From positions 124,001 through 188,000 of the forward strand of contig JAUICH010000006.1 of assembly GCA_030427505.1 (NCBI GenBank): 64,000 nt of DNA, in the 5' to 3' direction. This document shows, piece after piece, positions 7,725-64,000 of the stretch. This DNA comes from Verrucomicrobiia bacterium. Its GTDB lineage: Bacteria; Verrucomicrobiota; Verrucomicrobiia; Verrucomicrobiales; DEV007. Both the position numbers and the translations under genes were made by a program. Position 1 is the first letter of the stretch. The number at the start of each line of letters is the position of its first letter. Below the pieces are notes generated by a model that searched no databases, was not told the origin of the DNA, and saw nothing but the letters and a program-made list of their open reading frames with translations.

Positions 7725-7764
7725 GGGTATTTGGAGAAATAGGGAGAGGTCTTTTGAACTCCGG

Positions 7765-41234: not shown

Positions 41235-41272
41235 AGGGGAGACAGTCTCCAGACCGCCGTTCTTTTTTTGTA

Positions 41273-42271
41273 ATGAAAGCCAAGCAGTTTTATGCCGTTT
41301 ACGGGGTTATCCTGGCCCTGATCGTGGGGGGAGCCGGGTTCTTCCTGTATCGCGGTTTCTCCGCCTATTCCGCAGCCGTCGAGGAGTTTGACAACCGGGA
41401 TGCCACCATCAAAACCCTGAAGAAGGCGGCTCCCTTCCCGAACGCGGCCAACCTGGACAAGCTCACGGCTCAGGTCGACGACTACCAGCAGCAGATCGAG
41501 GAACTCAACAAGGCGCTGCTGAGGTTTCAGAAACCGCTGAACATGAATGTTAAGGATCGGGAGTTTCAGCAGATCCTGAAAAACAAAATAAGAGAGTTCA
41601 AAGAGTATGCCAAGGCCCGGGGGATGGGGCTGCCCGACACGGAGTCCGATCCTTTCTACATGGCCATGGACCGGTATGAGACGGAACTGCCGGAAAGCGA
41701 AATCGTGCCCTTGTTGGTATATCAGCTGGATGCCGTCGAACGTCTCCTGAAGATGTTGGCGGACTCCCGGGTGGAGCAACTTACCACTTTGAGCCGCGAG
41801 ACCCTGCCGGGAGAAGGGGACAACCCCCCTGCGGAGGAAGGCACCGTGGTGCAGAAGTACCCCATCAGCTTGACCTTTTCCGCCACGCACTCGGGCTTCC
41901 AGAGTTTCATCAATGCCCTGAGCAACGACGACGAGTTTTTCTTTATCCTGCGGATCATCCGGGTGGAGAACGAGAAACAGGAGGGACCGATCAAGGGGGC
42001 AGCCGACGTGGGGGTCTCGAGAATTCTCAACAAGGAAGGCGTCGAGATTCCCCAGACCGAGAAGGACGAACTCTACCAGCTTCCCTATGATGAGATGATG
42101 GCGATCATCGAGGAGCGAGGCTATCGCGTCGAAAGCCAGGATGCCCAGGTCATCATGGGGCAGGAGAAAGTGCACGCCTATTGCATCATCGACTTGGCGC
42201 GGTTCGAGGAATTCATAGATACGGAAGAGGGGGCTGGCGAGGCCGGTGGCCCGGAGAAAAAGAAGAAGTAA
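41273..42271 (+). CDS. PilO-like inner-membrane protein, Amuc_1100-like
   Basis: This 332-residue protein has a short cytoplasmic start, one transmembrane segment (about 7-28, AVYGVILALIVGGAGFFLY), a coiled coil (about 60-90, LDKLTAQVDDYQQQIEELNK) and a periplasmic domain. Within that domain PISLTFSATHSGFQSFINAL resembles the second PilO/GspM-type ferredoxin-like fold. Length, topology and neighbours match Amuc_1100, the well-studied A. muciniphila envelope protein with host immune effects. The likely role is the PilO-like alignment protein between inner membrane and secretin. Primary sequence identity is low; the call rests on order and architecture. Confidence 0.75.
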   Translation: MKAKQFYAVYGVILALIVGGAGFFLYRGFSAYSAAVEEFDNRDATIKTLKKAAPFPNAANLDKLTAQVDDYQQQIEELNKALLRFQKPLNMNVKDREFQQILKNKIREFKEYAKARGMGLPDTESDPFYMAMDRYETELPESEIVPLLVYQLDAVERLLKMLADSRVEQLTTLSRETLPGEGDNPPAEEGTVVQKYPISLTFSATHSGFQSFINALSNDDEFFFILRIIRVENEKQEGPIKGAADVGVSRILNKEGVEIPQTEKDELYQLPYDEMMAIIEERGYRVESQDAQVIMGQEKVHAYCIIDLARFEEFIDTEEGAGEAGGPEKKKK

Positions 42272-42355
42272 TGCAGCAGCGGGCCAATACCGGCCCGAGT
42301 GTTCTCCATCGAGGAAAGATCGCGGAATCAATTTTTAGTCAACCGGACATCGATA

Positions 42356-43348
42356 ATGGACTGGGTTTCAAACAAGTGGGATAAGGTCATTCTTTTGGTC
42401 GTGGCGCTGATCGCCATCGGCTTGTCAGTTAAGTTTGTCTTGGACAGTCTCGCCTACGGCGACCGCTTCCAAACCAGCACCGTGGCGCAGGACGACACCT
42501 TTCCCGAGATGGCCTCGGAACGGGTGCAGCAGTGCACCCTGCTGGTGGCGCAGAACACGGAATGGAAACTTCCGTCCCTGGGCCCCGAGGGGGGAGAGAA
42601 GCAAATCCCGCTCTTCAAGTCGGTGCCGATTGTGACGGTTTCCGGCCAGTTGATCGACATGCTCGATCCCAACGCCCGGCCGCTGCGTCCGCCGGTCACC
42701 AACGCGTGGTTGATGGAATACAACTTGGACTTCCTGAAGAGCAGCGTGCTGGACGACGACAATGATGACGACGGTTTTAGAAACCTCGAAGAGTGGGAGG
42801 CGAAGACGGATCCGACGGACAAGGCCAGCCACCCATCGTTTGCCAACAAGCTGGAACTGGTGTCCCGCCGCCAGCAAAACTATGTGGCGGAATTCGCGGC
42901 GAAGCCGGATGCCGAGCGTTACCAGATTATCCGCTACCCTTCTTCCCTGTTTAACAGCCGGGACACTTTCATCTTGGCGATTGGGGAGATTTCCAGTGAC
43001 GAACAGCTTCGCGTGGACTCATATGTGGAGAAGGAGGAAAAAGACGGCGCGGGCATCACGCGTGACTCTTCAGAGCTGTCCGTGACCTACAAACCGAACA
43101 CCCCGGACGCCGAACAACACGTCCTCAAGAAGGGGAACAAGACCGTCATCCCGACTTATTTCGCCCAGTTCCGGTTTTTGCTTGATAAGGGAGAAGACAT
43201 TTATGTAAAGGAAGGGGCCACGTTTAAACTGAGTCTCGATCCTGAGACCGAGTATAAACTCGTTGACATTGAAGAAGATAAAGCCGTAATCTCGTACCGC
43301 CCGGAGCCGGGAGCGGATGAGGTAACCGTCGAGATAAATAAGAAATAG
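42356..43348 (+). CDS. Membrane-anchored periplasmic protein, Amuc_1099-like, with calcium-type loop
   Basis: This 330-residue protein starts MDWVSNKWDKVILLVVALIA, an N-terminal membrane anchor like that of Amuc_1099, and continues as a periplasmic protein. Residues 133-160 hold an acidic loop (DDDNDDDGFRNLEEWE, then AKTDPTD) that has the form of a thrombospondin type 3/EF-hand-like calcium site. The C-terminal half is beta-rich (FRFLLDKGEDIYVKEGATFK). A PilP-like linker between PilO and the secretin is a reasonable inference from position. I chose the ATG at 42356; the frame opens at 42299 without a plausible membrane anchor at the start. Confidence 0.7.
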   Translation: MDWVSNKWDKVILLVVALIAIGLSVKFVLDSLAYGDRFQTSTVAQDDTFPEMASERVQQCTLLVAQNTEWKLPSLGPEGGEKQIPLFKSVPIVTVSGQLIDMLDPNARPLRPPVTNAWLMEYNLDFLKSSVLDDDNDDDGFRNLEEWEAKTDPTDKASHPSFANKLELVSRRQQNYVAEFAAKPDAERYQIIRYPSSLFNSRDTFILAIGEISSDEQLRVDSYVEKEEKDGAGITRDSSELSVTYKPNTPDAEQHVLKKGNKTVIPTYFAQFRFLLDKGEDIYVKEGATFKLSLDPETEYKLVDIEEDKAVISYRPEPGADEVTVEINKK

Positions 43349-43393
43349 CCGCAGTAATCTGCTCCTCGAAAAAAGAGGGGAATTTTCCAAACA

Positions 43394-43424
43394 GGCCGCT
43401 GAAATGGCGGCCAATTAGTTTTTT
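43394..43424 (+). promoter_or_regulatory. Hairpin plus T-tract between the Amuc_1099-like and secretin genes (attenuator candidate)
   Basis: GGCCGC (43394-43399) pairs with GCGGCC (43407-43412) around a seven-base loop; six bases later comes TTTTTT (43419-43424), 18 nt before the secretin start codon. An A-rich loop hairpin (CCTC/GAGG) lies just upstream. It could act as a partial terminator that lowers secretin expression relative to the inner-membrane genes. Confidence 0.4.
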
Positions 43425-43442
43425 GTCATCCAGCGAAGAAAA

Positions 43443-46001
43443 ATGAGTACCATGTTGCTGACTAGAGGGGCCAAATTGATCGGTGGAAGCCTATTGGTTT
43501 CAATGCTTGCCGCCGCCGGCAATGTTGCGGTTTGGGCGGAAGCCGGAGGAGGGGGAGCTCCCGGCGGCAGTGCCGACGGAGGAGCCCCATCGGTAGCCAG
43601 CCGTTATGTCATCCGCATGCAAGAGCGGGTCAAACAGGCGGACGATGCCGCGAACCGGGCGGCTCAGTTGCTCAGTGACGGGGACTATGAAGGGGCGATC
43701 AAGGAATTTCGCGCCGCTTTGGATTTGCTGCCGGATGCGCCGATGACGGAAGACCGCCGCGAGGCTTACACGAAGCGATTTGCCGACGCCAGTGTCCGCT
43801 TGGCGGAGCAACGCGCCGAACAGGCCCGCTATGACGACGCCATCACCCTGCTGGAAGCGGTGCTGGCCCCGGACGTGGACCCGGACAACGTGGAAGCCAA
43901 GCGTCTGCTCGAAAAGCTTCAGGACCCCGAATACTACTCCCCGGCCGTGACGCCGGAGCACTTGGATCGGGTGCGTCAGGTGGAGCGAGCCCTGGAAGTA
44001 GCTCGTGGCTACTACAACATCGGCGACTTTGACGGGGCTATCGACGAGTACCACAAGGTGCTCAATCTGGACCCCTACAATAAAGCGGCCCGCGGGGCGA
44101 TGGAAGACGTCCGGCACGAGCAGATCAACTACTACGACGTGGCCTACAACGAAACCCGGGCTCACATGATGATGGAGATCGCGCGCAGCTGGGAGATGCC
44201 GGTTCCGCAGTCTCTGGAAATCGAAGCCCCGCCGGAAGGGGTCGTGTCCGAATCTGACTCCGTCCGGATCATTGAAGACAAGCTTCGCAAGATTCAGATT
44301 CCGAGCATTGAGTTTGTGAACACACCGCTTTCGAGCGCGCTGGAGTTCCTCTCCATGAGAGCTTATGAGCTGGACCCGGATCCCGATCCGGCCACCAAGG
44401 GGGTGAACATCATTCTCAACGCTGGCGGTTCCGGCGGTGGCGGGGGCGCGCCCAGTGGTGGTGGCGGTACTTCTTCTTCTTCCTTTGACGATCCGGCGGG
44501 CGCAGCCCAGGCTTCTTCCTCCTTTGGCGGAGCGGGCGTGGAAAACACCCCGATCAATTTGAAAGTGTCTCAGGTGCCGCTGGGTGAAGCGCTTCGCTAC
44601 ACAACCAACCTGGCGAATTTGAAATACAAAGTGGAACCCCACGCCGTGGTGGTGGTGCCTCTGTCAGAGCCCACCAGTGATCTGTTTTCCAAGGTGTTTT
44701 CCGTACCGCCGACTTTCCTGTCTTCCGGTGGTGGCGGTAGCTCCAGCGATGCGGCCCCGGCGGATCCGTTCGCTGACCCGGTCGAATCGACTGGCTCCGG
44801 TATTTCTCAACGGCGTTCGGCCAAGGAGGTGCTTTCCGATGCGGGCGTAACCTTCCCTCCGGGCGCCAGCGCGATCTACAATAAAGGCAACTCTCAGCTG
44901 ATTGCCACCAACACGCAGGCGAACCTGGATCTGATCCAGATCTACGTGGAGTCCATCCGGGGTGAAGCGGAGAAGCAGATCTACATCAGCTCCCGCTTTG
45001 TGGAGATTGCGCAGGAAGACGGGAAGGAGCTGGGCTTCGACTGGCTTTTGGGTCCCTTCGACATTCCTACCTCTGGCGAAAAAGTGTTCGGTAGTGGTGG
45101 CACGCTGGGCAATCAGCGCACGGACCTGAGTCCTTCCGACTTTTCGTTCACGCAGCCGGGTACCACGGTTCCGGTGGGGGGGAATCCCGTGACCTCGGGG
45201 CTTCGTTCGGGTAGCTTGGGTGTTTCCGCGGATTCCATTGACGGCCTGATCGCGGAAGCGGCTGGCGCGGCGCAGTCCGCTTCCAGCTTGGCTCCGGCGA
45301 TCTTTGGCGTGGCGGGTGTGTTTACCGATCCTCAGTTCCAGGTGGTCATCCGGGCGCTGAACCAGCAAAAGGGTACGGACCTGCTGTCCGCCCCGAGCGT
45401 CATGGCCCGTAGCGGTCAGCGCGCCAAGGTGGAGGTGATTCGCGAGTTCATCTATCCGACGGAATACGATCCGCCGGAAATTCCGAACGAAGTGGGTACC
45501 GGTTTTGGTGCGGGCGTTTCCACTTTCCCGGTGACTCCGGCTAACCCGACTGCGTTCGAAACACGGAACACTGGGGTGACCTTGGAAGTGGATCCGGTGA
45601 TCGGCGCGGACGGCTTCACCATCGACTTGAACCTGTCTCCGGAAGTGGTCGAGTTTGAGGGCTTCATCAACTACGGGAGCCCGATTCAGACGGGTGCGAC
45701 CAACAACGTGACAGGCGCACCGACGACGATCGTATTGACCGAGAACCGGATTGAGATGCCGGTCTTCAATACCCGGAAAGTGACCACGCAGGTCACGATC
45801 TGGGACGGCCAGACCGTTGCCATTGGTGGTCTGATCCGGGAAGACATTCAGGACATCGAAGATAAGGTGCCGTTGCTGGGAGACATTCCGGTGGCTGGCC
45901 GCCTGTTCCGGTCCAGCACCGAGCTGCACCTGAAGCGGAACCTGACGGTGTTCGTCAAAGCTGACATTCAGGATCCGTCCGGTCAGAAGATCAATCCGTA
46001 A
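43443..46001 (+). CDS. TPR-containing outer-membrane secretin (PilQ/GspD superfamily), Amuc_1098-like
   Basis: This 852-residue protein should form the multimeric outer-membrane channel of the locus. After a signal sequence (cleavage probably near VWAE) it has TPR-like helices (about 57-230, for example GDYEGAIKEFRAALDLLPD and GDFDGAIDEYHKVLNLDPYN). N-domain repeats with Gly/Ser-rich inserts (about 280-440) follow. The secretin homology domain starts at about 515 (QIYISSRFVEIAQEDGKELG). It contains MARSGQRAKVEVIREFIYPT from residue 654, and the signature VPLLGDIPVAGRLFRS near the C-terminus. The order TPR, N-domains, secretin matches Amuc_1098. It is the last gene of the locus and is followed by a strong terminator. 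Its C-terminal domain is the clear relative of the three mini-secretins further on. Confidence 0.9.
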   Translation: MSTMLLTRGAKLIGGSLLVSMLAAAGNVAVWAEAGGGGAPGGSADGGAPSVASRYVIRMQERVKQADDAANRAAQLLSDGDYEGAIKEFRAALDLLPDAPMTEDRREAYTKRFADASVRLAEQRAEQARYDDAITLLEAVLAPDVDPDNVEAKRLLEKLQDPEYYSPAVTPEHLDRVRQVERALEVARGYYNIGDFDGAIDEYHKVLNLDPYNKAARGAMEDVRHEQINYYDVAYNETRAHMMMEIARSWEMPVPQSLEIEAPPEGVVSESDSVRIIEDKLRKIQIPSIEFVNTPLSSALEFLSMRAYELDPDPDPATKGVNIILNAGGSGGGGGAPSGGGGTSSSSFDDPAGAAQASSSFGGAGVENTPINLKVSQVPLGEALRYTTNLANLKYKVEPHAVVVVPLSEPTSDLFSKVFSVPPTFLSSGGGGSSSDAAPADPFADPVESTGSGISQRRSAKEVLSDAGVTFPPGASAIYNKGNSQLIATNTQANLDLIQIYVESIRGEAEKQIYISSRFVEIAQEDGKELGFDWLLGPFDIPTSGEKVFGSGGTLGNQRTDLSPSDFSFTQPGTTVPVGGNPVTSGLRSGSLGVSADSIDGLIAEAAGAAQSASSLAPAIFGVAGVFTDPQFQVVIRALNQQKGTDLLSAPSVMARSGQRAKVEVIREFIYPTEYDPPEIPNEVGTGFGAGVSTFPVTPANPTAFETRNTGVTLEVDPVIGADGFTIDLNLSPEVVEFEGFINYGSPIQTGATNNVTGAPTTIVLTENRIEMPVFNTRKVTTQVTIWDGQTVAIGGLIREDIQDIEDKVPLLGDIPVAGRLFRSSTELHLKRNLTVFVKADIQDPSGQKINP

Positions 46002-52153: not shown

Positions 52154-55100
52154 CTAGGGCTGGGGCCAGCGGTATTCGAGGCGTTCGACGGTGGGAAGGG
52201 CGTTGGTGAGGAGGTAGGTTCTGGTTTGCTGAGTCTGGGACTTGGTGCCCCAGTGAGTGTAGTAGGTGACCCGAAGGGTGAGGGGGGGCAGGCTTTTAAG
52301 GGAATCCACCTTTACGCCGGCGAATTCGATCTGGGCTTCCGAGCGGCAGAGACTGAACTGGTAGGCGCCGGGGATGCCGTGACGGATCTGGTATTCCTGC
52401 ACGCGTGGGCTTAGGTCGAGACGCCCACCATTGGGGCTGATGCCCTGGCTGAAGACGAGGGTGTTGTCCTTGTAGCCGGGTTCCAGGACTTTCACGTCCA
52501 CGTCTCCGCCGCAGGCGGTGATGACGACGCGCAGGTCCGAGGACATGGCATTGATGGGGAACTGGCGCAGGTTTCCGCCGGGACGGCCGCCGTTTCCGAA
52601 GAAATCGGTCAGGGCTATGGTGGCGAGGGCGCCGGGATCGCCGCTGTCGATTTCGCGTTCCACGGCTTTGGCGAAGGCGTTGGCCTGGCTTTTCAGGGCG
52701 GCCAGATCGTACTGAATGAGGGCGCGCGTGCTGGTGTCCGCCACGAAACGGTCCAACTCTTCAAGCAGACTGACGGCGCGGCTGGTGGCGCCCACTTCGG
52801 CGAGCCAGAAGGCGAAGGCACGGGTGGCTTCCACGGGGTTGGGTTCGACTTCGAGGAAGTTGGAAAGGATGCGTTCGGCCAGGGCGGAATGGCCTTTGGC
52901 CATGAACAGGCGGGCCATTTCCACCCAGGTGGCGGGAGCAGGAGTCTGCTCGTGAAACGTTTCGCGCAGGAGTTTATCGTAGGTGGCGGCGGGGTCCGCG
53001 CTGTTCTGGAGTTCTGTCAGGATGGCCGGGTCCGCCTGGGAGCTGGAGGCGGTTTCGATGGAGGGTCCCGCCTGGAGGTGAAAACTGGGCTGGTTCCTGG
53101 AAGGGACCTTGGGTTTGAAAGATTTGGCGGGCGGTCGTGGGGGAACGTAGTCGCCCGGCTTTTCAAAGACGCGAGAACCGCCGGACGCGGGAGCCGCGAA
53201 GGGATCGGCAAAGTAGTCGAGATCGTAGCGCGGTGTGGTTTCGACCACGATCATGTCTCCCCAGCGGAGGGGGACGGGTTGGGGCTTCAGGCCGAAGTTT
53301 TCCAGGTCGTAGCCAGTTCGGGCGCCGTCCCGGTAAAGGAAGATGCGCGACCACGAGCCCCAGGGATCGCGGGGACCTCCGGCGCGTTCCACGGCTTCTT
53401 TCAAGGTAAAGGGCGCCGGGGCGGTGATGATGCCGCGTTGAGGTACAAAGCCGCGAACGGAAACGTGGAGCGGCTTTCCGGGTGGCGGGCCGGCCGGACG
53501 GGCGCGGATTTCGGTCAGGCGCTGGAGACGTTGATCGATTTCCTTTTTCCACTGGTCGAAAGCGGCCTGACTTTTGAGTTGGGACTTGGCATTGATGGTA
53601 GCCTGGGCTTCGGGAAGCCAGGCGTCGAAGGGGGCGAGGCGTTCCTGGTTGAGCTGTTCCGGGGGGAAGGCCTGCCGGGAGGCTTTCAGCCAGATGCCGA
53701 CGGTGGTGATCTCCTGCTCCAGCCGCCAATCCACCCAGGGAAAGGAGGTGCGGTACCAGATCTCTTTGGCTTGCCAGGCCGTGGCCGCCCTGCTGAAGGC
53801 CCGTGAGTGATTGATGTTGAGGAGTAATTCGTTGTAGCGGGTCAGCAGTTCCGGCTCGGGCGGGGGGATGCGGTAGCGGAGGTGGTCTTCGAAACGTTCC
53901 AGGACGATGAGGGAGGTGTGGTCGCTGACAAGGCGTTCGGCGATGGCGTAGTCCTTGATGGCGGCTTCGTCGCCGAGAGTTTCCAGGGCGGCGAGGCGTT
54001 GTTGAGCCCAGGCGCGGCGGGCAAAGCCCCAGCCGGTCTTGTCTTCAGTGGCTTCGGAGCGGTTGAGGGTGAGTTCTTCTCCGTCGTCGAAGCGAATCTT
54101 TACCGCCTGGTTCCAGTTACGTTCGATGTGTCCTGACACCAGTACCAAGTGATCTCGCCGGGTGAGTTCGCAATCCGAGCGGGGCAGGTTTCGCACCTGA
54201 GCACCGTGGGGGTATTGGGTGAGTTCTTTCCAGGCATCTTCTTCCAGCACATTGATGTGGGCCTCGGCGAAACCGGTCAGGCTGGAGCTGATGGGACCGG
54301 TGGTGGAGGTGAGGATGAAGAGTTCCCGGTCCTGGAGGGGATTTGGTGGCAGGGTCCAGGCGGGGGAACTGAGTAGGCCATCAGTGACAAGAAGGGTGAC
54401 GCCCGCGAGCGGGCCCAGGGCGGAGAAGTCCGCCGCGCCGTCGTAGGGGATGTCCCGGAGAAAGGCGTCGAGCTCCGCGCTTTTTCCGTCCACCAGGGAA
54501 AACTTGTGGGCCGGCTCGAGCGCGGTGCGGAGGAGTTGGACGGATACTTCGGCATTGCCCAGCCATTGCCAGTAGAGGGCCAGGGCCTCCAGTTCTTTGG
54601 CATGGTCGCGATACTTTCCGGAGAGAGAGGCGTCCCAGATAAGGTGGATCTTGCCGGGCTTTTTCCGTGGGCTTACTTTCGTGGTGTCCGGCAGCGTTCT
54701 TTGGACAACAAAGTGGGTCACGCTGTCAGGGGCTTTTTCGAGACGGACCAGGGTTTCGCCCGGCGCGGGCAGGGCGGGCCGCAGGGAGAAGTCTCCCGCC
54801 AGGTTGATGACGGAGCCTTTCCAGGTTTGCTCCAGCGTACCACCGGTCTTACGGGGTGGCGACGCGGTTAAGCCGGGGGTCGTGATGGCGGCGCTCTTGA
54901 CTCCGCGAACCTGGCAGGTGAAGGACTGCAGGAGCGTGGGGTGGTCCAGGGGAAGGAAGTATTCGGCGTTTCCCAAGTATTGGAGGTAGCCGATGCGGAC
55001 GCGCTTCGGCGCGCGGGGTTCCAGGGGGAAGATGCGGGTGCGGTAAACATTTCCTTCCTCGCGCTCGACCAATCCGGGATCCACCCGGCGGCGCTTGATG

Positions 55101-55483
55101 GCTTCGTATGCGTTCCGGGCCTGCTCCTTGTCCACCGAGATGGCGGGGCGCAGGTGGCCATTGACCTCCAGGGCGTAGGTGGAAACCGTGGCGCCTTCCG
55201 GGAGGGTCATGACGAACTCGCCCTCCGTCCGGCGCTCGGCGTGGTTGAAAAACTCCAGTTCGAAGATGGTTTCGACCAGGGCGCCTTCGCCTTCCACGCT
55301 GATGGAGACCGAGGTCAGTTCCAGGGGCTGGCCGTCGCTCTGGGAGATGAGGACGGGGAAGGCGCCCGACGGGGGAGTGGAGGCTGGCGGGTCCGTTTGC
55401 GCTTCCGCCCGGAGCGGGCGCAGTACTCCGGCCCCGGCCAGGAGAATGGCGCAGAGAATGGCGTGCTTCGCCCAGGCGTTCAT
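52154..55483 (-). CDS. Large secreted VIT / vWA / SLBB / TPR protein
   Basis: This 1109-residue exported protein has a signal peptide (cleavage near AEAQ). An inter-alpha-trypsin VIT domain follows (about 35-170: VSISVEGEGALVETIFELEF, EGEFVMTLPEGATVSTYAL). Next is a vWA-like domain with an intact MIDAS pattern, D284-x-S-x-S288 in HLIWDASLSGK and D368 in VTDGLLSS. A helical middle comes next, then an SLBB domain (about 670-750: VSVRGFVPQRGIITAPAPF, RIFLYRDGARTGYDLENFG) of the kind found in polysaccharide-export Wza-type proteins. TPR-like helices (about 810-930) are followed by a C-terminal beta domain resembling DUF2135 (DLRVVITACGGDVDVKVLEP). VIT/vWA/DUF2135 proteins are known in bacteria; an added SLBB domain is unusual to me. 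It follows the mini-secretin gene by 4 nt and is surely co-transcribed with it. Confidence 0.85.
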   Translation of the reverse strand: MNAWAKHAILCAILLAGAGVLRPLRAEAQTDPPASTPPSGAFPVLISQSDGQPLELTSVSISVEGEGALVETIFELEFFNHAERRTEGEFVMTLPEGATVSTYALEVNGHLRPAISVDKEQARNAYEAIKRRRVDPGLVEREEGNVYRTRIFPLEPRAPKRVRIGYLQYLGNAEYFLPLDHPTLLQSFTCQVRGVKSAAITTPGLTASPPRKTGGTLEQTWKGSVINLAGDFSLRPALPAPGETLVRLEKAPDSVTHFVVQRTLPDTTKVSPRKKPGKIHLIWDASLSGKYRDHAKELEALALYWQWLGNAEVSVQLLRTALEPAHKFSLVDGKSAELDAFLRDIPYDGAADFSALGPLAGVTLLVTDGLLSSPAWTLPPNPLQDRELFILTSTTGPISSSLTGFAEAHINVLEEDAWKELTQYPHGAQVRNLPRSDCELTRRDHLVLVSGHIERNWNQAVKIRFDDGEELTLNRSEATEDKTGWGFARRAWAQQRLAALETLGDEAAIKDYAIAERLVSDHTSLIVLERFEDHLRYRIPPPEPELLTRYNELLLNINHSRAFSRAATAWQAKEIWYRTSFPWVDWRLEQEITTVGIWLKASRQAFPPEQLNQERLAPFDAWLPEAQATINAKSQLKSQAAFDQWKKEIDQRLQRLTEIRARPAGPPPGKPLHVSVRGFVPQRGIITAPAPFTLKEAVERAGGPRDPWGSWSRIFLYRDGARTGYDLENFGLKPQPVPLRWGDMIVVETTPRYDLDYFADPFAAPASGGSRVFEKPGDYVPPRPPAKSFKPKVPSRNQPSFHLQAGPSIETASSSQADPAILTELQNSADPAATYDKLLRETFHEQTPAPATWVEMARLFMAKGHSALAERILSNFLEVEPNPVEATRAFAFWLAEVGATSRAVSLLEELDRFVADTSTRALIQYDLAALKSQANAFAKAVEREIDSGDPGALATIALTDFFGNGGRPGGNLRQFPINAMSSDLRVVITACGGDVDVKVLEPGYKDNTLVFSQGISPNGGRLDLSPRVQEYQIRHGIPGAYQFSLCRSEAQIEFAGVKVDSLKSLPPLTLRVTYYTHWGTKSQTQQTRTYLLTNALPTVERLEYRWPQP

Positions 55484-55487
55484 GCCC

Positions 55488-56327
55488 TTATTCCTTCTTC
55501 TTTGCGGAGGTTTTCTTGGGCTCTTCCAGGGGCAGGCCAGTGACGACGATATCCGCCTTCACCATGACCATGACCTTCCGTCCGTAGTCGGGCATGCCGG
55601 ATTCCAGGTTGAGAGGGGAGCAGGCGCCGAAGAGGAAGTATTCACCGGCGAGGAGTGTCACTTGGGTGGTGACTTTCATGGTGTAGAAGGTGGGCATCTG
55701 GATGTCCAACTCGCCTTCCTTGGATTTGTAGGTGCCCCACATGCTGTGATCGGCGAGGTAAACGATCTCGGGGCTCATGTTGAGATCGATGGTGATTCCG
55801 TCCGCGCCGAGGACGGGATCGACTTCAAAGGTGGAGCCGACGTGCCGGGTTTCGAAGGCGGCGGGGATGGGGAGGCGGTTGCCGTATTCCTTCGGTTTGG
55901 CGGGCGGCCCGTCTTTCGGTGGGGGTGAGGTGACGAGGAACGGAGGATCGTATTCCGTGGGATAGATGTATTCGTGGATGGACTCCACCTTGGCGCGCTG
56001 GCCGCTGCGCGCGACGACCATCATGGTGTCGAGGAGCTTGGCCTCGCCCTTTTTCATGAGGGCGGAGAGATCCTCGCGCAGGGGGCCATCGTTGGAAGGT
56101 TTATAGGTGACGGGCCTGGTGGAATCGGTTTCCGCGAGGAGGGCGGTGTACTGTTCGTGGGAGACTTCGATCCATTCGACCTGGATGCGGAGCTGTTTTT
56201 CCATCTCCTCCAGGGGCACCTCGCGACCGAGGGGATTGAAGGCGTCCGCGTCCTGTCCCCGGGCGGAAGCCGTCCAGACAAGAGAGAGGAGGAATAAGAA
56301 GAGGCAAAGGGGGTTTACCAATTTCAT
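55488..56327 (-). CDS. Mini-secretin 1: secreted stand-alone secretin homology domain
   Basis: This 279-residue protein has a signal peptide (MKLVNPLCLFLFLLSLVWTA, cleavage near ARGQ) and one domain that aligns with the C-terminal half of the secretin at 43443-46001. Shared segments are QVEWIEVSHEQ (first strand), VVARSGQRAKVESIHEYIYP and TEYDPP, AAFETRHVGSTFEVDP, GITIDLNMSPEIVY, FYTMKVTTQVTLLAGEYF and MVMVKADIV. The N0-N3 domains are absent, and the segment with the VPLLGDIPVxGRLF signature is replaced by a shorter one. The C-terminus is lysine-rich. It precedes the VIT/vWA/SLBB gene by 4 nt. A full-size gated pore seems unlikely; a small outer-membrane-associated or periplasmic ring, a secretin modulator or an adaptor is possible. 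Confidence 0.8.
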   Translation of the reverse strand: MKLVNPLCLFLFLLSLVWTASARGQDADAFNPLGREVPLEEMEKQLRIQVEWIEVSHEQYTALLAETDSTRPVTYKPSNDGPLREDLSALMKKGEAKLLDTMMVVARSGQRAKVESIHEYIYPTEYDPPFLVTSPPPKDGPPAKPKEYGNRLPIPAAFETRHVGSTFEVDPVLGADGITIDLNMSPEIVYLADHSMWGTYKSKEGELDIQMPTFYTMKVTTQVTLLAGEYFLFGACSPLNLESGMPDYGRKVMVMVKADIVVTGLPLEEPKKTSAKKKE

Positions 56328-56635
56328 GGAATTCAGGTTCGGGATTCGCAGGGGAAACTGCAAGCCTTTTAGGGCGACCTTCGCTGGGGTGGGTTGGTGA
56401 TGTGTGATCTCACGCATGAGAGTGCCAATAAGCAGTCCCATCCAAGCGTTGTCTTGGGGATTGGTCTTGGCGGGCTGAGTGCTCTGAGGGTATAGAGGCC
56501 GGGCTCACTTTCCTGGAGGACCTTCCGGTCTCAACCATCGCAACGGCCTGTCTCTCGAGCTCTGCACCGTGGCGTTCCGGGGATCTTGCCGCACCTCGGG
56601 TCTGGCAGAGGGGCGAAGCCTTCGCTTCCTTCTTG

Positions 56636-58810
56636 CTACATCAAAAATGACGGAGGCCGGCTGCCGGTGGCCCAGTCGGTGGGCTCGGGCCCCATTTCCA
56701 GGGTGAGCTCGGCTTCGGCTTCGAACTCGGTGAGCTTCAGGTAGCTGCGGTGGAGGGGCTTGCCATTGAGCCAGGCGCGCTGGACGAAGGGGTGATTGGG
56801 CGCCTGATTCAGGGCGGTCACGATGAAGTCGCCGGCCCACATGTGGAGTTTCACCTGGTCAAAGAGGGGACTGCCGATGAGCATGATGGGCAGCCCGGTG
56901 GCTGGGAAGAGGCCCATGGCGCTCCACACAAACCAGGAGGACAGGCCGCCGGAGTCGTCGTTTCCGGGCAGGCCGCCTTTTCCAGTGGTGAACTGGTAGT
57001 CCATGACGCCACGAACGATCTCCGCCGTGCGGGCGTGTTTTCCCACCCACAGGTAGGCGTAGGGCGTCTCCATGTCGGGCTCGTTGTTGAGCCCTTCGAA
57101 GCGGTGCACGGTTTGACCTTCTTCGGGGTCCGCGAAACCGAAGAACTGGTCTAGCAGGTGGGCAAAGCGGTCCTCTCCACCGGCCAGCTCTATCCGGGCG
57201 ACCATGTCATGCAGAAAGCGGAAGGAGTAGTTCCAGTTTTCGCCTTCGTAGTAGTCGGAGTCTGCGCTGAGGAGACCGGTTTCCTTGTCGAAGGCGTTTC
57301 GCCAGTGGAAGGAAAGCGGGATGCTCTTGTCGTAGATGGTCTGGTCGCCGATGCGCTTGGCCATCTGGGCGATGCACCAGTTGGCATACGCGATGTCCAG
57401 AGTGTGGGAGAGGGGGTGAACCACCTGATTGCGGGCGAACTCCGCGAATTTTCCGCGACGGCCTTTGCCGCTGAGACTGGTATTCCAGAGCAGCATGAGG
57501 ACTTCCTCCCAGTCCGCGGAGATGCCGCGCATGTGGGCGTCGCTGAGGATAATGTGGCAGAGACCGGTGGCCTGCTTGGCGAAGCGTTCCGGCGCGTTGT
57601 CGATAAGGTAACTGACCGGGAAGCCGCCTTCGCGCTGGGCGACTTCGCAGAGAAAGGCAACGAAGTCCGCGCCAAACTCCGGCCACAGAGTCATGACGAG
57701 GGGGAGCTGGGTCTTGTAAAGGTCCCAGAGGGTCGAGAGATCGAAGAAAAAAGGACCAGCCTCTCCGGTGAAGGGATTCTCGTCGCGGAAATCACCGGGC
57801 TTGATCGTGGAATGGTAGAACGCAGTGTAGAAGATCTGGCGCTGTTCGTCGGTGCCGCCGGAGACGGAGATCTTTCCGAGGATGGAGTCCCAGGCTTTGC
57901 TCGCGTCAGCGGCGGTTTCATCAAACGACTTGGGCAGGGTGAGCTTCAGCCCGTCGGTCGCCCGTTCCCGGCTGACCAGGGAAAAGCCGATGCGCAGGTC
58001 CACGGTGGCGCCGGGCTCATCGGTCTCGAACCAGACGCCAAACGGTTTCTGCGCACCGAGAGTGGCGCCGGTGGCGTTGTAAATATCCGTGCCCTCGAGA
58101 ATATCTTCGCCCTCCCAGAAGCCGGCGGAGGAGGTGCCCGACACGGCTTCGATGTCGAAGTAAATGGCGATGCCCTCCATTTTGATACTCCCGGCGCAAA
58201 CCTTCTGATTTCTGAGGCGGGAGTGGCACTCCGTCGGGTAGGATTTCATCCCTTCAATGAGGAGACCGCCGCTGGAAAAATCGACAACGACTTTGCCGGA
58301 CTGGCCCTCGGGAAAGGTGTAGCGGTGCAGGGCGGTGCGCTTGGTACAGGTGACTTCGAACTGGACCTGAGACTCGGCAAACTCTCCGGCGTAGTAGCCA
58401 GCCTGGGAGGTCTCATTGACCAGTCCGTAGCGTTTACCCAGCCCGTCGAGGCCGCCGCCAACGATAGGGGTCGTGAGCAGGTAGTTGTAGTAAGTCCGGA
58501 TCCTTCCAGTACCAGACTGGTGAAAATGGGCCAGCCCGAGGGCTTCGTGGCGATCGAAGAGAATCGCGGGCGGGTCGCCCGTGAGCGAGACCTCGTATCT
58601 GCCATAGCCGGTCACGTAGGCGCCAGAGTAGGCGCAGACGGATACCATGCCAAAGGGGAGCACGGCGCCGGGGTGGGTATTTCCCACGGGCGGCTTGGCG
58701 CACCACCACTTTTTCGCTACGCCTTGCGGTTCCGGCAAGGCGGCGGATTCACACCCGATGAACGGATCTACCCATTGGGCGTATCCGTCTTTAGAGGTGG
58801 GAGGGGACAT
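56636..58810 (-). CDS. GH92 family alpha-mannosidase-like glycoside hydrolase
   Basis: This 724-residue protein matches glycoside hydrolase family 92, calcium-dependent exo-alpha-mannosidases. Typical segments are QWVDPFIG, GNTHPGAVLPFGMVSVCAYS, GLAHFHQSGTG, the acidic LNNEPDMETPYAYLWVGKH (E577, equivalent to the family general acid region) and GNDDSGGLSSWFVWSAMGLF (D618, D619, general base region). The length fits the family. Unlike most GH92 enzymes it shows no signal peptide at the chosen ATG, so it may be cytosolic. The upstream AGGAG-type sequence (complement near 58817) supports that start. It probably degrades host or algal mannans or N-glycans, in keeping with the nearby sulfotransferase and glycan genes. 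Confidence 0.92.
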   Translation of the reverse strand: MSPPTSKDGYAQWVDPFIGCESAALPEPQGVAKKWWCAKPPVGNTHPGAVLPFGMVSVCAYSGAYVTGYGRYEVSLTGDPPAILFDRHEALGLAHFHQSGTGRIRTYYNYLLTTPIVGGGLDGLGKRYGLVNETSQAGYYAGEFAESQVQFEVTCTKRTALHRYTFPEGQSGKVVVDFSSGGLLIEGMKSYPTECHSRLRNQKVCAGSIKMEGIAIYFDIEAVSGTSSAGFWEGEDILEGTDIYNATGATLGAQKPFGVWFETDEPGATVDLRIGFSLVSRERATDGLKLTLPKSFDETAADASKAWDSILGKISVSGGTDEQRQIFYTAFYHSTIKPGDFRDENPFTGEAGPFFFDLSTLWDLYKTQLPLVMTLWPEFGADFVAFLCEVAQREGGFPVSYLIDNAPERFAKQATGLCHIILSDAHMRGISADWEEVLMLLWNTSLSGKGRRGKFAEFARNQVVHPLSHTLDIAYANWCIAQMAKRIGDQTIYDKSIPLSFHWRNAFDKETGLLSADSDYYEGENWNYSFRFLHDMVARIELAGGEDRFAHLLDQFFGFADPEEGQTVHRFEGLNNEPDMETPYAYLWVGKHARTAEIVRGVMDYQFTTGKGGLPGNDDSGGLSSWFVWSAMGLFPATGLPIMLIGSPLFDQVKLHMWAGDFIVTALNQAPNHPFVQRAWLNGKPLHRSYLKLTEFEAEAELTLEMGPEPTDWATGSRPPSFLM

Positions 58811-59017
58811 TGCGAAAGGAGATGTAGATTTCTTTTACCAGCAAGTGGGATGCCATGATGTCGAGTTAAGCATTGCTTATAAATGGCTGCATCAGAACGC
58901 GCTAGGCTACCAGGTGGTGTCAGTGCTAGAGAGCAGGTGGGAGTAGCGTTACAGAACTTACCGTTGTGCGCGAGAATGGAAAGGAGATGGTGGTTTTTGG
59001 AAAGACAACTGTATATG

Positions 59018-59326
59018 TTAGGAAATTTCCGCCAGTTCCGGGCGGGTTGGGACGCCGGGAACGGATACGAACTTTCCAGGATAGAGCGCTGGTTCTCCAT
59101 CCGAACGGTAGGCCGCAAGTTGTCCGCCAGGTTGAAACACGGCGTAGTCCAGGCAGGCGGCATTGGGCGCGACCGGTTCCAGGGGCGAGCCTGCGGGCAC
59201 CCAGTAGTGACCGAAGAAGACCGGCGGCTCGTCCGCTCCGTAGGGGTCCCGATCCAGCAGTGCGGAGACCGGCAGCGGGACGTCTGGGGCGGTGGCTTCG
59301 CGGCAGGTTTTCCCCGCGAGCGGCTC
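59018..59326 (-). pseudogene. Decayed metallophosphoesterase C-terminal fragment
   Basis: The minus strand encodes PPVFFGHYWVPAGSP and then APNAACLDYAVFQPGGQLAA and YRSDGEPALYP, ending at a stop at 59018-59020. This is the C-terminal third of the protein-phosphatase-like metallophosphoesterases that carry GHYW and CLDY motifs. The frame is blocked upstream by stop codons at 59327-59329 and 59342-59344, and no good start exists. The N-terminal two-thirds with its metal motifs cannot be recognised upstream, although a degraded FRDVH segment near 59395 in another frame may be a trace. I call it a pseudogene remnant. Confidence 0.7.
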
Positions 59327-59569
59327 TTACAAGAGCGCGCATCATCCAACTTTTGACCTTGCGTGCTTTCTGAGGAGAAAGCGGATGCACGTCACGGAAG
59401 ACGATCATGGAATCGAGGCCAAAATCCAGGGCCGCCTCTGCCACGGAATCAATGGAAGGAGATTGCCCTGCCTTGGCCAGTTGCGCCGCGGCCGGAGGAT
59501 GTCCGTCCGGGTCCGGTAGCGCTTCTGTTTGGGAGAACTGAAAACGAGGGGAAAGAGAAAGAGGTTTGC

Positions 59570-59994
59570 TTAGCCCTGGGGCAATTGCCGTATCATGGAG
59601 GCGAGGTCCAGCCAGACTTGCCTGCGGGACATCTGAACCATCTTCGGTAAACTCAATGACGTGGAGGAGGCGGAACTTCAGGGGCCGGTAACGGCCCTCC
59701 AGGCCGAAGGGGCGTCCCACGGCGTGGCCTTCCCTGGCAGACTCGTCCACCATGAAATTGTCTCCTTAGAGGCGTTTGGTGGACTACACCGCGCCATCTT
59801 TCAGGCCGGCGAAAAGAGTTTCGTAAAAGTGTCGTGCCTGCTCTGGCGTGGTGCTGGGTCCCACGGGCCAGCCGGCGATGTCATGAACAAACTCGGGAGC
59901 GAGGGTAGCCAGGACGCCCTCCACGTTTGCCGATGGATTCGTGTTAAAAGTGCTCGGCCAATTTGGCGTCCATCTGTTGGGGAGAAAGGCTCAT
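59570..59994 (-). pseudogene. Decayed NTF2/SnoaL-like (polyketide cyclase-fold) gene
   Basis: Joining three frames on the minus strand restores a NTF2/SnoaL-like protein of about 140 residues: MSLSPQQMDAKLAEHF, then ANVEGVLATLAPEFVHDIAG and WPVGPSTTPEQARHFYETLF, then DNFMVDESAREGHAVGRPFG and LEGRYRPLKFRLLHVIEF, then RRQVWLDLASMIRQLPQG. There is a frameshift near 59947, two in-frame stops (59784-59786 and 59766-59768), and a second frameshift near 59650. The remaining protein logic is intact, so decay looks recent. Function of the intact family members is mixed, so no role is assigned. Confidence 0.75.
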
Positions 59995-60102
59995 GGGAAG
60001 CGAATGAGTGTGAGTTAGATTACTGCTACAAATTGAGACAGATGTCGCAGAAAAGAATAGTGATCTTGTTCAGCCAACACGGAAAACTTTTTTTGGCGAA
60101 AG

Positions 60103-60966
60103 TCAGCCTTTCGAGGAAGCGGCGGCAGCCGCGGTCAAGCGTTGCTGCAATGCTTCGCACCGGGTGGCGATGCGGGAGTCCACGGTGAAGGGAAACGACT
60201 CCCGTAGAGATTCCTGGTGGACGATAAGACCAAACCGTGACGGCAGAGAGAGACCAATGTGCAGGGAGATCCGTTCGAGAACCTGGGTGGGGTTCCGGAC
60301 ACAGTCCGCGTAGTTCAAGATGAGAAGCTCGTTCTCCAGGTCCTGCTGAAAGAGCACGGAGTTTCGCGCCAGCCAGTAGAGCGCGTAGGCGTTGTGATCT
60401 TCGATCTCTGGAAGGGGAAATTCAGCCAGCAGGCTGGCAACGTCTTCCGGGATGGACTGGTTCATCCAGGAATCGACAGAAACATCCCAGAGCGGACCGA
60501 TGCGCCGGCGAAAGTCTTCGTTCCTGAAGAAGCCTTTGTAGGACTGGATAACCTGCCGGTAGTCGCGAAAAATCCAGATGCCGCGGGCCTCCGGAAAGGC
60601 GGCAAGGAGTTCCCGGGCGCGCTGAGAATCGTGGAGGGGTTTGACGAGGGTGAAGGGATGCCGTTCCCGTGACAGTTCGCGGCTTAGGGTTCCGGACTCC
60701 TGGAGGCAGTAGTAGCGGGGACCGCGTTCGGGCACGAAGTACGGCGGATCTCCCTCCCCGTAGTCTTTGACGCGGGGGTCCAGTCCGATGAGGTCCTTCA
60801 GCATGGTGGTGCCCGAGCGGTTGCAGCCGAAGACGAAAATGAAACGAGACTTCTCGCTGGGAAAAATGGTCGCACGAATCCAGGTGCGGAGGCGGTTGAG
60901 CTTGCTCGAACCGATACACCTCCGGCGCAGGCCGCTGAGGGGAGACCAGGAAGACGGGCGCTTCAT
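60103..60966 (-). CDS. Sulfotransferase-family protein
   Basis: This 287-residue protein has the PAPS 5'-phosphosulfate loop FIFVFGCNRSGTTMLKDLIG and the likely 3'-phosphate motif region WIFRDYRQVIQSYKGFF. The ELLILNYADCVRNPTQVLE segment is typical of the sulfotransferase superfamily. It should move sulfate from PAPS onto a hydroxyl of a glycan or small molecule. I chose the ATG at 60966; the frame extends upstream to a GTG at 61038 with low-complexity sequence. It is divergent from mini-secretin 2. Confidence 0.82.
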   Translation of the reverse strand: MKRPSSWSPLSGLRRRCIGSSKLNRLRTWIRATIFPSEKSRFIFVFGCNRSGTTMLKDLIGLDPRVKDYGEGDPPYFVPERGPRYYCLQESGTLSRELSRERHPFTLVKPLHDSQRARELLAAFPEARGIWIFRDYRQVIQSYKGFFRNEDFRRRIGPLWDVSVDSWMNQSIPEDVASLLAEFPLPEIEDHNAYALYWLARNSVLFQQDLENELLILNYADCVRNPTQVLERISLHIGLSLPSRFGLIVHQESLRESFPFTVDSRIATRCEALQQRLTAAAAASSKG

Positions 60967-61100
60967 ATTCTGGATTGAGATAGGTGGACCGGAAGACTGA
61001 GGCTTTCGCCATTCTGGCGTCGTCTGCGTTTTACACAACTTTTACAGAGAGCGCACAGGCGGTTCACACATGATTTCTGAGTTTGTGACAAGATACCCGC

Positions 61101-61961
61101 ATGAAAACCCTAAGAGTGCATTGGTTTCGGGCTTGTTCAGCGAAAAGAGAATGGGTTGCGGAGAAGTGGCCGGTCATTTTCGCGGGAGTCTGGTTGGCCA
61201 TGGCGGCTATCTGTCCCGGAAGCGTATTTGGTCAGACGGAAAAGCCTGACACCAAGCCAAAGGAGGAAAAGAAGGCGGCGGCAAAGGATCCCTTCGCCGC
61301 GCCGAAGCAGGCCGAAGCCCAGAAGCGTGAAGATCGGGACATCGTCATCATGGTGGAGTTCCTCGAACTGGACTTGAAGAAGGCCCGAATGCTGATCCGC
61401 GAGCATGTGAGCAATGGGAACCAGGATCAGAATACGCTCTACGAAGAAGTGGAGAAACTCATTGCGGCAGGTCAGGCGACGCCCTTAGAGACGATGTGGA
61501 TGCGAACCCGTAGCGGGCAGCGCGCCCGGGTCGATTCCGTGGAGGAGATCATTTATGCCAAGGAGTTCGATCCGCCAAGACTGCCGAACAAAGTGGAGCT
61601 CGATAGTGTGGGGGAGATTGAGCGGCTACAGGGCAGGCCCGCGTTACCGGCTGCGTTCGAGACCCGAGAAGCAGGGTCCATACTTGAGGTAGATCCCGTC
61701 GCCGCGGGGGATGGCAGCGGGTGGATCGACCTGAATCTGTCCCCGGAGTTGGTTCATTTCAGGGGCATGCGTCCGGCGATCGCTGATGGATATAGGTCCG
61801 GTGAAGAAGAGACTACCGTGCTGCCGGATTTCCATACCATGAAATTGTGGACTCAAACAACGCTCCGGTCCGGGAACTACCATTTGCTGGGATTGTTGAA
61901 ACCGGACGGAAAACGCGAACACCGGGTCATGGTGTTCGTTCGGGCCGATCTGGCGGACTGA
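61101..61961 (+). CDS. Mini-secretin 2: secreted stand-alone secretin homology domain
   Basis: This 286-residue protein has a long signal peptide (hydrophobic part PVIFAGVWLAMAAICPG, cleavage near VFGQ), a charged linker, and a secretin homology domain. The domain starts IVIMVEFLELDLKKARML and continues with the shared core RTRSGQRARVDSVEEIIYAK, EFDPPRLP, AAFETREAGSILEVDP, WIDLNLSPELVHFRG, FHTMKLWTQTTLRSGNYH and RVMVFVRADL. The secretin signature loop and N-domains are missing. It is 48 nt upstream of mini-secretin 3 in the same direction; the two look like a diverged tandem duplication. Confidence 0.78.
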   Translation: MKTLRVHWFRACSAKREWVAEKWPVIFAGVWLAMAAICPGSVFGQTEKPDTKPKEEKKAAAKDPFAAPKQAEAQKREDRDIVIMVEFLELDLKKARMLIREHVSNGNQDQNTLYEEVEKLIAAGQATPLETMWMRTRSGQRARVDSVEEIIYAKEFDPPRLPNKVELDSVGEIERLQGRPALPAAFETREAGSILEVDPVAAGDGSGWIDLNLSPELVHFRGMRPAIADGYRSGEEETTVLPDFHTMKLWTQTTLRSGNYHLLGLLKPDGKREHRVMVFVRADLAD

Positions 61962-62009
61962 GAGAACCTGACTTCCCAAGACGCGGAATCTAGAGACTGA
62001 AAACTAACC

Positions 62010-62840
62010 ATGAAAACTTATAAATACTTCATCATAACGGCTATTCTGGGAACTTGTTTGCAGGCGCCAGTAATGGCTCAGGAAAGTTCCGCCGAGGGCG
62101 GAAAACGAAAAGACCCCTTCGTCGCCAAGGCGAACGCGGCGGCGGACCAGGGCACGGCGGGAGGAGCCGAACCTGAAAAGAGTCAGCCGAAGGAAAAACT
62201 GGAGAACGTGTCCGTACTCGCAACGGTGGACTGGATAGAAGCGGACTACGCGAAGATCCGGAAGTTGCTTCACGCGAACATGGGCAAGGCGGACGCGACT
62301 GAGATTCTGACGCAAATGGAGCGTTGGGTGAACACCGGCGAGGCAACGGTCCTGGAAAGTCTGTCTCTTGTGGCTCGAAGCGGACAGCGGGCCAAGGCGG
62401 ATTCCTCGGAAGGGTATATCTACGCCACGGAAGCGGATTCGCCGTACTATCCGGATGAGATCTCCCTCCGTGACAGTCCGTTTGACGGAAGGTTTCTGGG
62501 AACTCCGAGCAATCCCACCGCTTTTCAAACTCGCAATGTGGGGTCGATAGTCGAAATGGATCCAATCCTGTCCGCCGGATACACCGAAGCCTATTTGAAC
62601 ATTTCCGCGGAGATCGTCCGGTTGCTGCGGACTCAACCAGCAATGGACGTTAAGGTCGATGAAGCCTACGCCAAGATCATGGGAGGCTATGCAATGCCCA
62701 TTTTCTACCGGATGCAGGTGACGACTTCCGTCCATCCGGAGATGGGAAAACCCGCTCTGGTCAGTGTGCAGACGCCCTATGGGGCGTCAGACCGCCGGGT
62801 ACTGGTGTTTGTCACTGTCGAGGTGCCCGGTCTCAAGTAG
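62010..62840 (+). CDS. Mini-secretin 3: secreted stand-alone secretin homology domain
   Basis: This 276-residue protein has a signal peptide (MKTYKYFIITAILGTCLQA, cleavage near VMAQ), a charged linker starting ESSAEGGKRKDPFVAKANAA, and a secretin-like domain: LATVDWIEADYAKIRKLL, LVARSGQRAKADSSEGYIYA, TAFQTRNVGSIVEMDPILS, YLNISAEIVRLL, FYRMQVTTSVHPEMGKP and RRVLVFVTVEV. It is the most diverged of the three copies in this window (DSP for DPP, no DLN in the later strand). It follows mini-secretin 2 and precedes the histidine kinase by 71 nt. Confidence 0.77.
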   Translation: MKTYKYFIITAILGTCLQAPVMAQESSAEGGKRKDPFVAKANAAADQGTAGGAEPEKSQPKEKLENVSVLATVDWIEADYAKIRKLLHANMGKADATEILTQMERWVNTGEATVLESLSLVARSGQRAKADSSEGYIYATEADSPYYPDEISLRDSPFDGRFLGTPSNPTAFQTRNVGSIVEMDPILSAGYTEAYLNISAEIVRLLRTQPAMDVKVDEAYAKIMGGYAMPIFYRMQVTTSVHPEMGKPALVSVQTPYGASDRRVLVFVTVEVPGLK

Positions 62841-62911: not shown

Positions 62912-64000
62912 ATGAAGTCCCGCGTCCCCCATCTGCTCCTGGGCCTGCTCCTGGCGGGAGCGGTGGGGGTGCTGGTGGCGGGGTTTCTGGCCGCGGAACG
63001 GAAGGAAACGGAAGTGGTGCCGCGGGACCGGGGCGCTTTGACGGACTTGGCCGTGTATCTGGCGGGAGAGCTGCGGATGCTGGATGAGCTGTACACTTCC
63101 CACCTGAAGGAATTGGCCGGCGAAACGTCCCTACGGGAAGACTTTGCCATCAAAAAGCGCTGCGAGGAGATCGTCGGAATAGCGCAGTTTTCCATTCTCA
63201 GCCGGGCTCCTGACGGGCGGCGGGACCGGCACCTGAAGGTCCGGGACTGGACCGAACCCAGGGCACCCGCCCCGTCCTTTTCCGAGAGCGACCGCCTGGG
63301 AGCGGAGGTGATCAGGCTGTCCCCGGTTTCCGCTTATTTGGACGGGTTGGATGAGTCCGGCTGGATCGACGAACCGGGAAAACCGCTGATGTACTGGGCG
63401 CGGCGTTCTCCAAACGAGATCGTGGTACTGTTAGTGAATCGCGCGGAAGTAGCGGCGGCCATTACTGGGTGGTTGCGGGAGTATGAGGGCGAAGCTTTTG
63501 AAACCGTGGCCGTGGGTGGGGGGCCAGACGTCTTTCGCGCCGGGAATGGCGACACGTTGTTCGAAGTGGCGGAAGCGGAAACCGGGAAAGGTGTCCGGCC
63601 GGACTTGCTGCTGCCGCTCCGGACGCGGTATGGCGACTGGCACCTGGAGTCGTGGGACCGGCGGGTCACCACGGTTCGCTATGACCAGCGCGTCATTTCC
63701 GGGACCTGGCTGCTGGCACTGCTCCTGGCCTTGACCGGTGTGGCGCTTTTCCGGCACCAGCGGTCAGTCTTGAAACGGGCGGCCCAGCAGGTGTCCTTCG
63801 TCAACCGGGTGTCTCATGAGCTGAGAACCCCATTGACCAACATTATCCTCAACACCGACCTCGTTTCCGAAGCACTCTCGGAAAAGGCGCTCGCGGGCGG
63901 AGGAGTCGGGCGGCGTCTGTCCCTGGTGCGGGAGGAGTGCCGGCGCCTGAACCGGCTGATCGCCAATGTACTGAGCTTTTCCGGACGCGAGCAGAACCGG
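62912..64000 (+). CDS. Membrane sensor histidine kinase (3' end outside window)
   Basis: The frame is open from the ATG at 62912 to the window edge (363 codons) and continues beyond it. It has an N-terminal transmembrane segment (about 8-27, LLLGLLLAGAVGVLVAGFL), a periplasmic sensor region of about 235 residues without a recognised domain, and a second transmembrane segment (about 268-285, GTWLLALLLALTGVALF). The dimerisation/phosphoacceptor helix is FVNRVSHELRTPLTNIIL with the phosphorylated histidine at H302. The ATP-binding domain would lie outside the window. It may sense an envelope signal linked to the neighbouring mini-secretins; that link is only by position. Confidence 0.9.
   Translation, partial: MKSRVPHLLLGLLLAGAVGVLVAGFLAAERKETEVVPRDRGALTDLAVYLAGELRMLDELYTSHLKELAGETSLREDFAIKKRCEEIVGIAQFSILSRAPDGRRDRHLKVRDWTEPRAPAPSFSESDRLGAEVIRLSPVSAYLDGLDESGWIDEPGKPLMYWARRSPNEIVVLLVNRAEVAAAITGWLREYEGEAFETVAVGGGPDVFRAGNGDTLFEVAEAETGKGVRPDLLLPLRTRYGDWHLESWDRRVTTVRYDQRVISGTWLLALLLALTGVALFRHQRSVLKRAAQQVSFVNRVSHELRTPLTNIILNTDLVSEALSEKALAGGGVGRRLSLVREECRRLNRLIANVLSFSGREQNR

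Follow-up and report, generated by a model that had tools for sequence, protein, structure and literature searches.

Secretins are, to our knowledge, known only as giant outer-membrane channels, and the locus described here raises the question of what three short exported proteins that resemble just the C-terminal domain of a secretin might do in a bacterium that also encodes a full-length one. The locus belongs to a Verrucomicrobiales genome of 6.4 Mb (assembly GCA_030427505.1, contig JAUICH010000006.1, positions 124,001 to 188,000); this whole stretch of 64,000 nucleotides is hereafter called the window, and the short proteins, denoted mini-secretins, are named by the first coordinate of their genes (Table 1).

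Table 1. Genes of the two mini-secretin operons and the reference secretin (window numbering)
Feature	Coordinates	Strand	Description
Full-length Amuc_1098-family secretin	43443..46001	+	852 aa; NF042912 974 bits vs cut-off 750
Secreted VIT-SLBB protein	52154..55483	-	1109 aa; VIT, DxSxS-containing middle region, SLBB, weak DUF2135
Mini-secretin, VIT-SLBB operon	55488..56327	-	279 aa; signal peptide MKLVNPLCLFLFLLSLVWTASA-; NF042912 E 5.5e-24
Mini-secretin 1, operon A	61101..61961	+	286 aa; Sec-type signal-like N-terminus; NF042912 E 3.2e-20
Mini-secretin 2, operon A	62010..62840	+	276 aa; signal peptide-like N-terminus; NF042912 E 3.8e-10
Sensor histidine kinase	62912..64000 (end at 64507, beyond window)	+	531 aa; tandem-PAS/dCache-like periplasmic sensor, HisKA, HATPase_c
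Response regulator of window operon A	64504-65193 (beyond window; L046:2504-3193)		Response_reg + Trans_reg_C

Homology and predicted fold

An earlier note on this DNA had claimed three short secreted open reading frames (ORFs) without giving their strand; all three are real, and the 55488 frame is open on the minus strand only (ORF 55488-56441, with a probable ATG at 56327). The note had further aligned the three proteins with the C-terminal domain of the window secretin, and this is borne out by a family model, a genome search and the predicted fold. The NCBIfam model of the Amuc_1098 secretin (NF042912) aligns over positions 582-749, 599-694 and 592-690 of its 805 with the 55488, 61101 and 62010 proteins, respectively, at scores of 84, 72 and 38 bits, which are below the 750-bit cut-off for the whole protein. 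A search of the genome with the 55488 protein finds 61101 (E 5.5e-31), 62010 (E 1.7e-19) and the full-length secretin (E 4.2e-27), the nearest full-length relative of the mini-secretins and the reference for their losses. The homology is far above chance, and the window mini-secretins are true homologs of the C-terminal domain of the Amuc_1098-type secretin. The Pfam Secretin model (PF00263), which the note had proposed to search with, gives a divided result, with weak matches to two of the window proteins (20.8 bits, E 3.2e-4, and 17.3 bits, E 3.8e-3), none to the third, and none that reaches the gathering cut-off of 27.5; a tandem relative (L132) scores 39.8 bits over two stretches. None of the curated family models covers the mini-secretins, and a PHROGs search with them returned nothing.

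The mature 55488 protein was modeled with AlphaFold as a single chain from an input that included 31 relatives. In a PDB search with the 55488 model (pLDDT 87, pTM 0.79), the 28 best entries are all secretins (Z 9.1-14.1; next entry Z 4.4), with phage pIV as the best match (7ofh, Z 14.1, 2.3 A over 128 residues), and in a Foldseek search, 40 secretin chains come ahead of any other protein (E 8.5e-7). The earlier note had allowed that there might be no structural match to the secretin beta-domain; the monomer model does match it, and the mini-secretins are predicted to have this fold. Within the PDB, secretins were reached by fold only, a sequence search with the mini-secretin profile having found none.

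At the Pfam level, the genome encodes ten secretins, the majority of which do not score as Amuc_1098-type, and exactly three mini-secretins; several secretin machines seem to coexist in this bacterium. The full-length window secretin belongs to an Amuc_1098-1102-like operon (39480-46001) that also encodes an actin-like PilM-type protein and two membrane-anchored proteins preceded by a small protein, and no mini-secretin is encoded within this pilus operon. The two mini-secretin operons of the window are separated by genes for a GH92 glycosidase (56636-58810) and a sulfotransferase (60103-61038).

Modules lost and retained

In pIV, strand 1 is followed by the beta-lip (199-234) and then by the second outer strand, gate 1 is delimited by the pivots G267 and G297, gate 2 spans approximately residues 321-335, and each chain pairs its gate 1 with the gate 2 of the following chain (PMC8563730); in XcpD, the central gate comprises residues 466-496 (PMC10550240). 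A phmmer comparison aligned the segment DLLSAPSVMARSGQRAKVEVIRE of the window secretin with DILATPSIVTLDNMQATFNVGQE of PulD, and because of this alignment, we place the first gate pivot of the window secretin at I666 and the second one at the G of FETRNTG. Strand 1 and the helix are retained in the aligned mini-secretins, along with the two gate arms, the gate-2 segment and the final outer strands; the gate arms and loop read IYPTEYDPPE...AFETRNVG, and the best conserved positions over 82 mini-secretin domains are those of the gate arms (SGQRA, ESIxExIYPTE, AFETR, G and E-DP). By contrast, the stretch of approximately 95 residues from strand 1 to the conserved helix, comprising the beta-lip and the second outer strand, is reduced to a short helical link of about 20 residues.

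The N-domains and TPRs are absent from the window mini-secretins by both alignment and Pfam, as the earlier note had stated, and the note was also right about the VPLLGDIP stretch, the signature of which (VPLLGDIPVxGxLF) is found in none of the 83 complete mini-secretins versus 25 of the 28 full secretins (L154, a late-called full secretin, was set aside from the mini-secretins in this count). Its description of these proteins as lacking the pore gate is, however, the wrong way round, because the gate arms are among the most conserved parts whereas the membrane-facing lip and the second outer strand are missing; the gate positions in pIV and XcpD together with the PulD alignment rule out loss of the gate. 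The mini-secretins have the inner barrel and the central gate but no parts for a canonical outer barrel with a lip. Because the lip is missing and the N-termini are signal-like, we infer from the sequences that the products are probably soluble and periplasmic.

Several relatives (L057, L065/L132, L070 and L071) carry one or two ring-building N-domains ahead of the mini-secretin domain and are plausible intermediates in the shrinking of a secretin. The N-domain-plus-mini gene of L071 adjoins a gene (7556-8806) for a lipoprotein-like protein of 416 aa that combines two ring-building N-domains with a degenerate mini-secretin domain, another possible intermediate.

Distribution and phylogeny

Public contigs were scanned with the closer alignment set A4, the 18-row set A3 being too diverse. 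Mini-secretins are present in several copies per genome across the order, as single domains (230-300 aa), as gene arrays with two to four members and as ORFs with two domains in tandem (440-560 aa), and the named carriers are mostly metagenome-assembled genomes labeled Verrucomicrobiales, Verrucomicrobiaceae or Akkermansiaceae. In a phylum-wide draw, short-frame matches come nearly exclusively from Verrucomicrobiales, with one clear exception in another class (G191), and the full secretins, unlike the mini-secretins, are found throughout the phylum. An Akkermansia-like genus (g19, in our reading Akkermansia) is represented by nine genomes, which keep two full secretins and contain no mini-secretin. 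Several short ORFs (in L144, L151, L154 and L155) that were considered as mini-secretins are late-called full secretins, and an apparent fusion of 698 aa in L048 is an over-extended reading frame.

In a quick tree of 110 domains, the Amuc_1098-type secretins that were recovered along with the mini-secretins form one tight clade, the mini-secretins are on long branches, and those of the VIT operons are nearly a single clade. The first and second halves of the fused proteins fall into separate clades that are shared between genomes, indicating that the fusions are ancient and had more than one origin. The earlier note had treated the three window proteins as one set; in fact, 61101 and 62010 are a pair from a kinase operon, and 55488 is from the VIT-SLBB operon and a different branch of the family. 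In its broader outline, namely that secreted proteins with a re-employed secretin fold form a conserved family with multiple copies and consistent partners, the note is borne out by the genome searches, the neighboring genes and the tree, and the spread across Verrucomicrobiales, with operons conserved in four families, shows that these proteins are not the debris of one strain.

Arrays of two to four divergent mini-secretin genes occur without a kinase or VIT partner in L098, L102, L118 and L120. In three related genomes (L055, L105 and L109, one of them labeled Akkermansiaceae, UBA5020), a mini-secretin gene lies 22 nt ahead of a gene for a hydantoinase/5-oxoprolinase-like protein of 1261 aa, a possible third partner.

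Operon A: mini-secretins with a histidine kinase and a response regulator

Gene calls around the mini-secretins revealed a kinase (510-531 aa) followed by a response regulator directly 3' of them in 12-13 independent genomes, an arrangement to which the 61101/62010 pair belongs. Both proteins have the features of a two-component system, with HisKA and HATPase_c in the kinase and receiver and DNA-binding domains in the regulator. The kinases share a periplasmic region of approximately 240 residues without a Pfam match; its model (pLDDT 76) shows a tandem PAS/dCache fold, with a best Z of 8.8, just above chance arrangements, and a Z of 7.3 for LuxQ (2hje), such that we assign the sensor to the tandem PAS (double PDC)/dCache type with moderate confidence.

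The linkage was examined in reverse with a profile of the sensor region alone (A6), from which the kinase core was excluded. This region is present in 32 of 142 relatives; among 30 loci, a mini-secretin ORF lies directly upstream on the same strand in all 28 testable ones, the other two starting at contig ends, and the same holds for the four lowest-scoring matches (4/4). In the phylum-wide draw, a mini-secretin directly precedes the kinase in 5/5 and 4/4 loci, including G191. Altogether, all 41 kinase loci with upstream DNA, 33 of them not in the profile, have a mini-secretin directly upstream, and they span four families, one of which belongs to another class (G191, L225). This obligate linkage extends to gene order and spacing: the distance between the mini-secretin and the kinase is mostly 17-96 nt, and the response regulator lies downstream of the kinase in each of the 40 loci with enough DNA. 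Exactly two mini-secretin domains precede the kinase in 25 of the 30 loci that could be assessed among those of the A6 search and its lowest-scoring matches, as two genes in 6 and as a tandem ORF in 19, and five loci have a single domain. The divergence of the sensor is correlated with that of the adjacent mini-secretin domain (r 0.74 for tree distances, a value not reached in any of 2000 permutations), although shared descent alone can produce such a correlation. In L054, the mini-kinase operon is directly preceded by a second sensor gene, of hybrid type (5059-8181, 1040 aa).

Operon B: a mini-secretin with a VIT-SLBB protein

The 55488 gene is part of a different arrangement, in which the start codon of the VIT-SLBB gene lies 4 nt past the mini-secretin stop codon. 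A mini-secretin directly precedes the VIT-SLBB gene in all 11 full-length orthologs with upstream DNA, with some of the gene pairs overlapping in an ATGA-like spacing. Upstream of the genes for seven distant VIT proteins that lack the SLBB part (L209-L214 and L216), there is no mini-secretin, which excludes the VIT domain alone as the partner. The protein of the window, of VIT-SLBB-DUF2135-like architecture, contains in its middle part a MIDAS-like DxSxS motif, and it looks like a secreted family of its own, for which the mini-secretin is, at a guess, a binding partner. The neighbor listing that the earlier note had proposed thus yields two consistent sets of partners, the dCache-type kinase with its response regulator and the VIT-SLBB protein.

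Possible functions of the mini-secretins

In the explanation that we favor, with a probability of roughly one half, the mini-secretins are periplasmic co-sensor subunits of the operon A kinase, and the operon B branch was adopted by the VIT-SLBB protein. An Amuc_1098-type beta-domain stripped of the beta-lip, the second outer strand, the VPLLGDIP loop, the N-domain rings and the TPR would be exported from operon A to the periplasm as one or, usually, two domains, and would bind the tandem-PAS/dCache sensor domain of the kinase, the activity of which would change with whatever else is bound to the mini-secretin; the response regulator would then pass the signal on to transcription. The second branch would have been taken up by the secreted VIT-SLBB protein, presumably as its binding partner. 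The signal itself might, as a guess, be how far the secretin/pilus machine of the same cell is assembled or gated, perceived through the gate-like surface. The most specific version of this scheme, in which the secretin gate module is a soluble mimic of a protomer and the exported pair feeds a private dCache kinase for envelope surveillance of the own secretin/pilus state, is a long shot.

Co-operonic genes can encode a target and its regulator rather than a subunit and its receptor, and dCache sensors are able to bind small molecules without a partner. It is therefore conceivable, albeit clearly less probable, that the mini-secretins are the product of the circuit, that is, envelope or surface proteins under cis control by the adjacent two-component system, which would sense a small molecule via its own dCache domain. 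The rapid divergence, tandem arrays and fusions recall exported proteins on which selection varies, many copies lack a neighboring kinase, and, judging from the fold matches, small ligands are the usual ones for dCache domains. Yet, a regulator need not co-occur with an envelope protein in 41 of 41 loci, nor be paired with a private sensor domain that is absent elsewhere, and the fixed two-domain dosage ahead of the kinase fits a stoichiometric partner better; the five loci with a single domain count against the co-sensor role. We favor the co-sensor role because the sensor domain was never seen without a mini-secretin and because the dosage is about two domains per kinase. Sensing is not the sole use of the mini-secretin fold, given that most mini-secretins (in arrays, VIT operons and as orphans) adjoin no kinase.

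The role proposed in the earlier note, an adaptor, plug or modulator of the Amuc_1098 channel, has so far found no support, the consistent partners being those of operons A and B and not the pilus operon. Co-assembly of the mini-secretins with the full Amuc_1098 secretin or with each other, as a plug, a cap or an extra gate ring, would agree with the conservation of the gate arms common to the Amuc_1098 family, with the retention of ring-building N-domains in the relatives listed above, and with the pairing of gates between pIV chains (PMC8563730), whereby a loose gate module could dock on the edge of a protomer. Nevertheless, such co-assembly appears unlikely: the second outer-barrel strand and lip required for a canonical ring are absent, the pilus operon of the window contains no mini-secretin, and the nine Akkermansia-like genomes keep their full secretins without any. 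A role inside the pilus operon is rejected because no mini-secretin adjoins a full secretin. Loss of several secretin modules and long branches could also be expected of truncated remnants of decaying secretin genes; this origin is highly improbable, and we reject it because 82 of the sequences have open frames with conserved gate arms, and because the linkage is maintained in operons across four families, with the halves of the tandem fusions forming separate clades common to several genomes.

Comparison with known systems

The pairing of the mini-secretins with a kinase suggests recruitment of a pore protein into signal sensing. If so, this would be a large conserved family that has the fold and the gate of secretins but is unable to form such an outer-membrane channel and is tied to a private kinase; we know of no earlier use of the secretin fold in signaling. 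It would offer a concrete handle on envelope sensing in Verrucomicrobiales, as well as a naturally occurring construct of the secretin gate that may be soluble. We found no description of mini-secretins in the open-license literature that was searched.

Among the known families, the Amuc_1098 type IV pilus secretin (NF042912) shares with the mini-secretins the C-terminal domain, with strand 1, the helix and the stretch from the gate arms to the last strand, and the motifs ARSGQRAKVE, IYPTEYDPPE, AFETRNxG, EVDP and DLNLSPE; unlike that family, the mini-secretins lack the TPR and the N-domains as well as the beta-lip, the second outer strand and the VPLLGDIP loop, and diverge far faster. The more distant members of the superfamily, GspD, PilQ, InvG and pIV, have the beta-domain fold that is predicted for the mini-secretins (Z 9-14), but in the latter, a canonical outer barrel with a lip is impossible, and the window proteins score below the Pfam gathering threshold. 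The operon B protein has the VIT domain in common with the VIT proteins of the XrtN system and marine sortase targets (TIGR04477 and TIGR03788), but falls far below their cut-offs, contains SLBB and comes after a mini-secretin.

In the TorT-TorS system, a kinase works with a periplasmic co-sensor protein, and both TorT and LuxP have periplasmic-binding-protein folds. LuxQ, a kinase of the tandem PAS/dCache class, reads its signal via the periplasmic protein LuxP (PMC8534201). As in LuxP-LuxQ, operon A combines a gene for an exported protein beside that of the kinase, a predicted LuxQ-like tandem PAS sensor and a response regulator; what sets it apart from both LuxP-LuxQ and TorT-TorS is that its exported protein has the beta-domain of a secretin and is usually present twice. 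Thus, the parts, a secretin fold and a two-component system, are of known kinds, and it is their combination that appears to be new.
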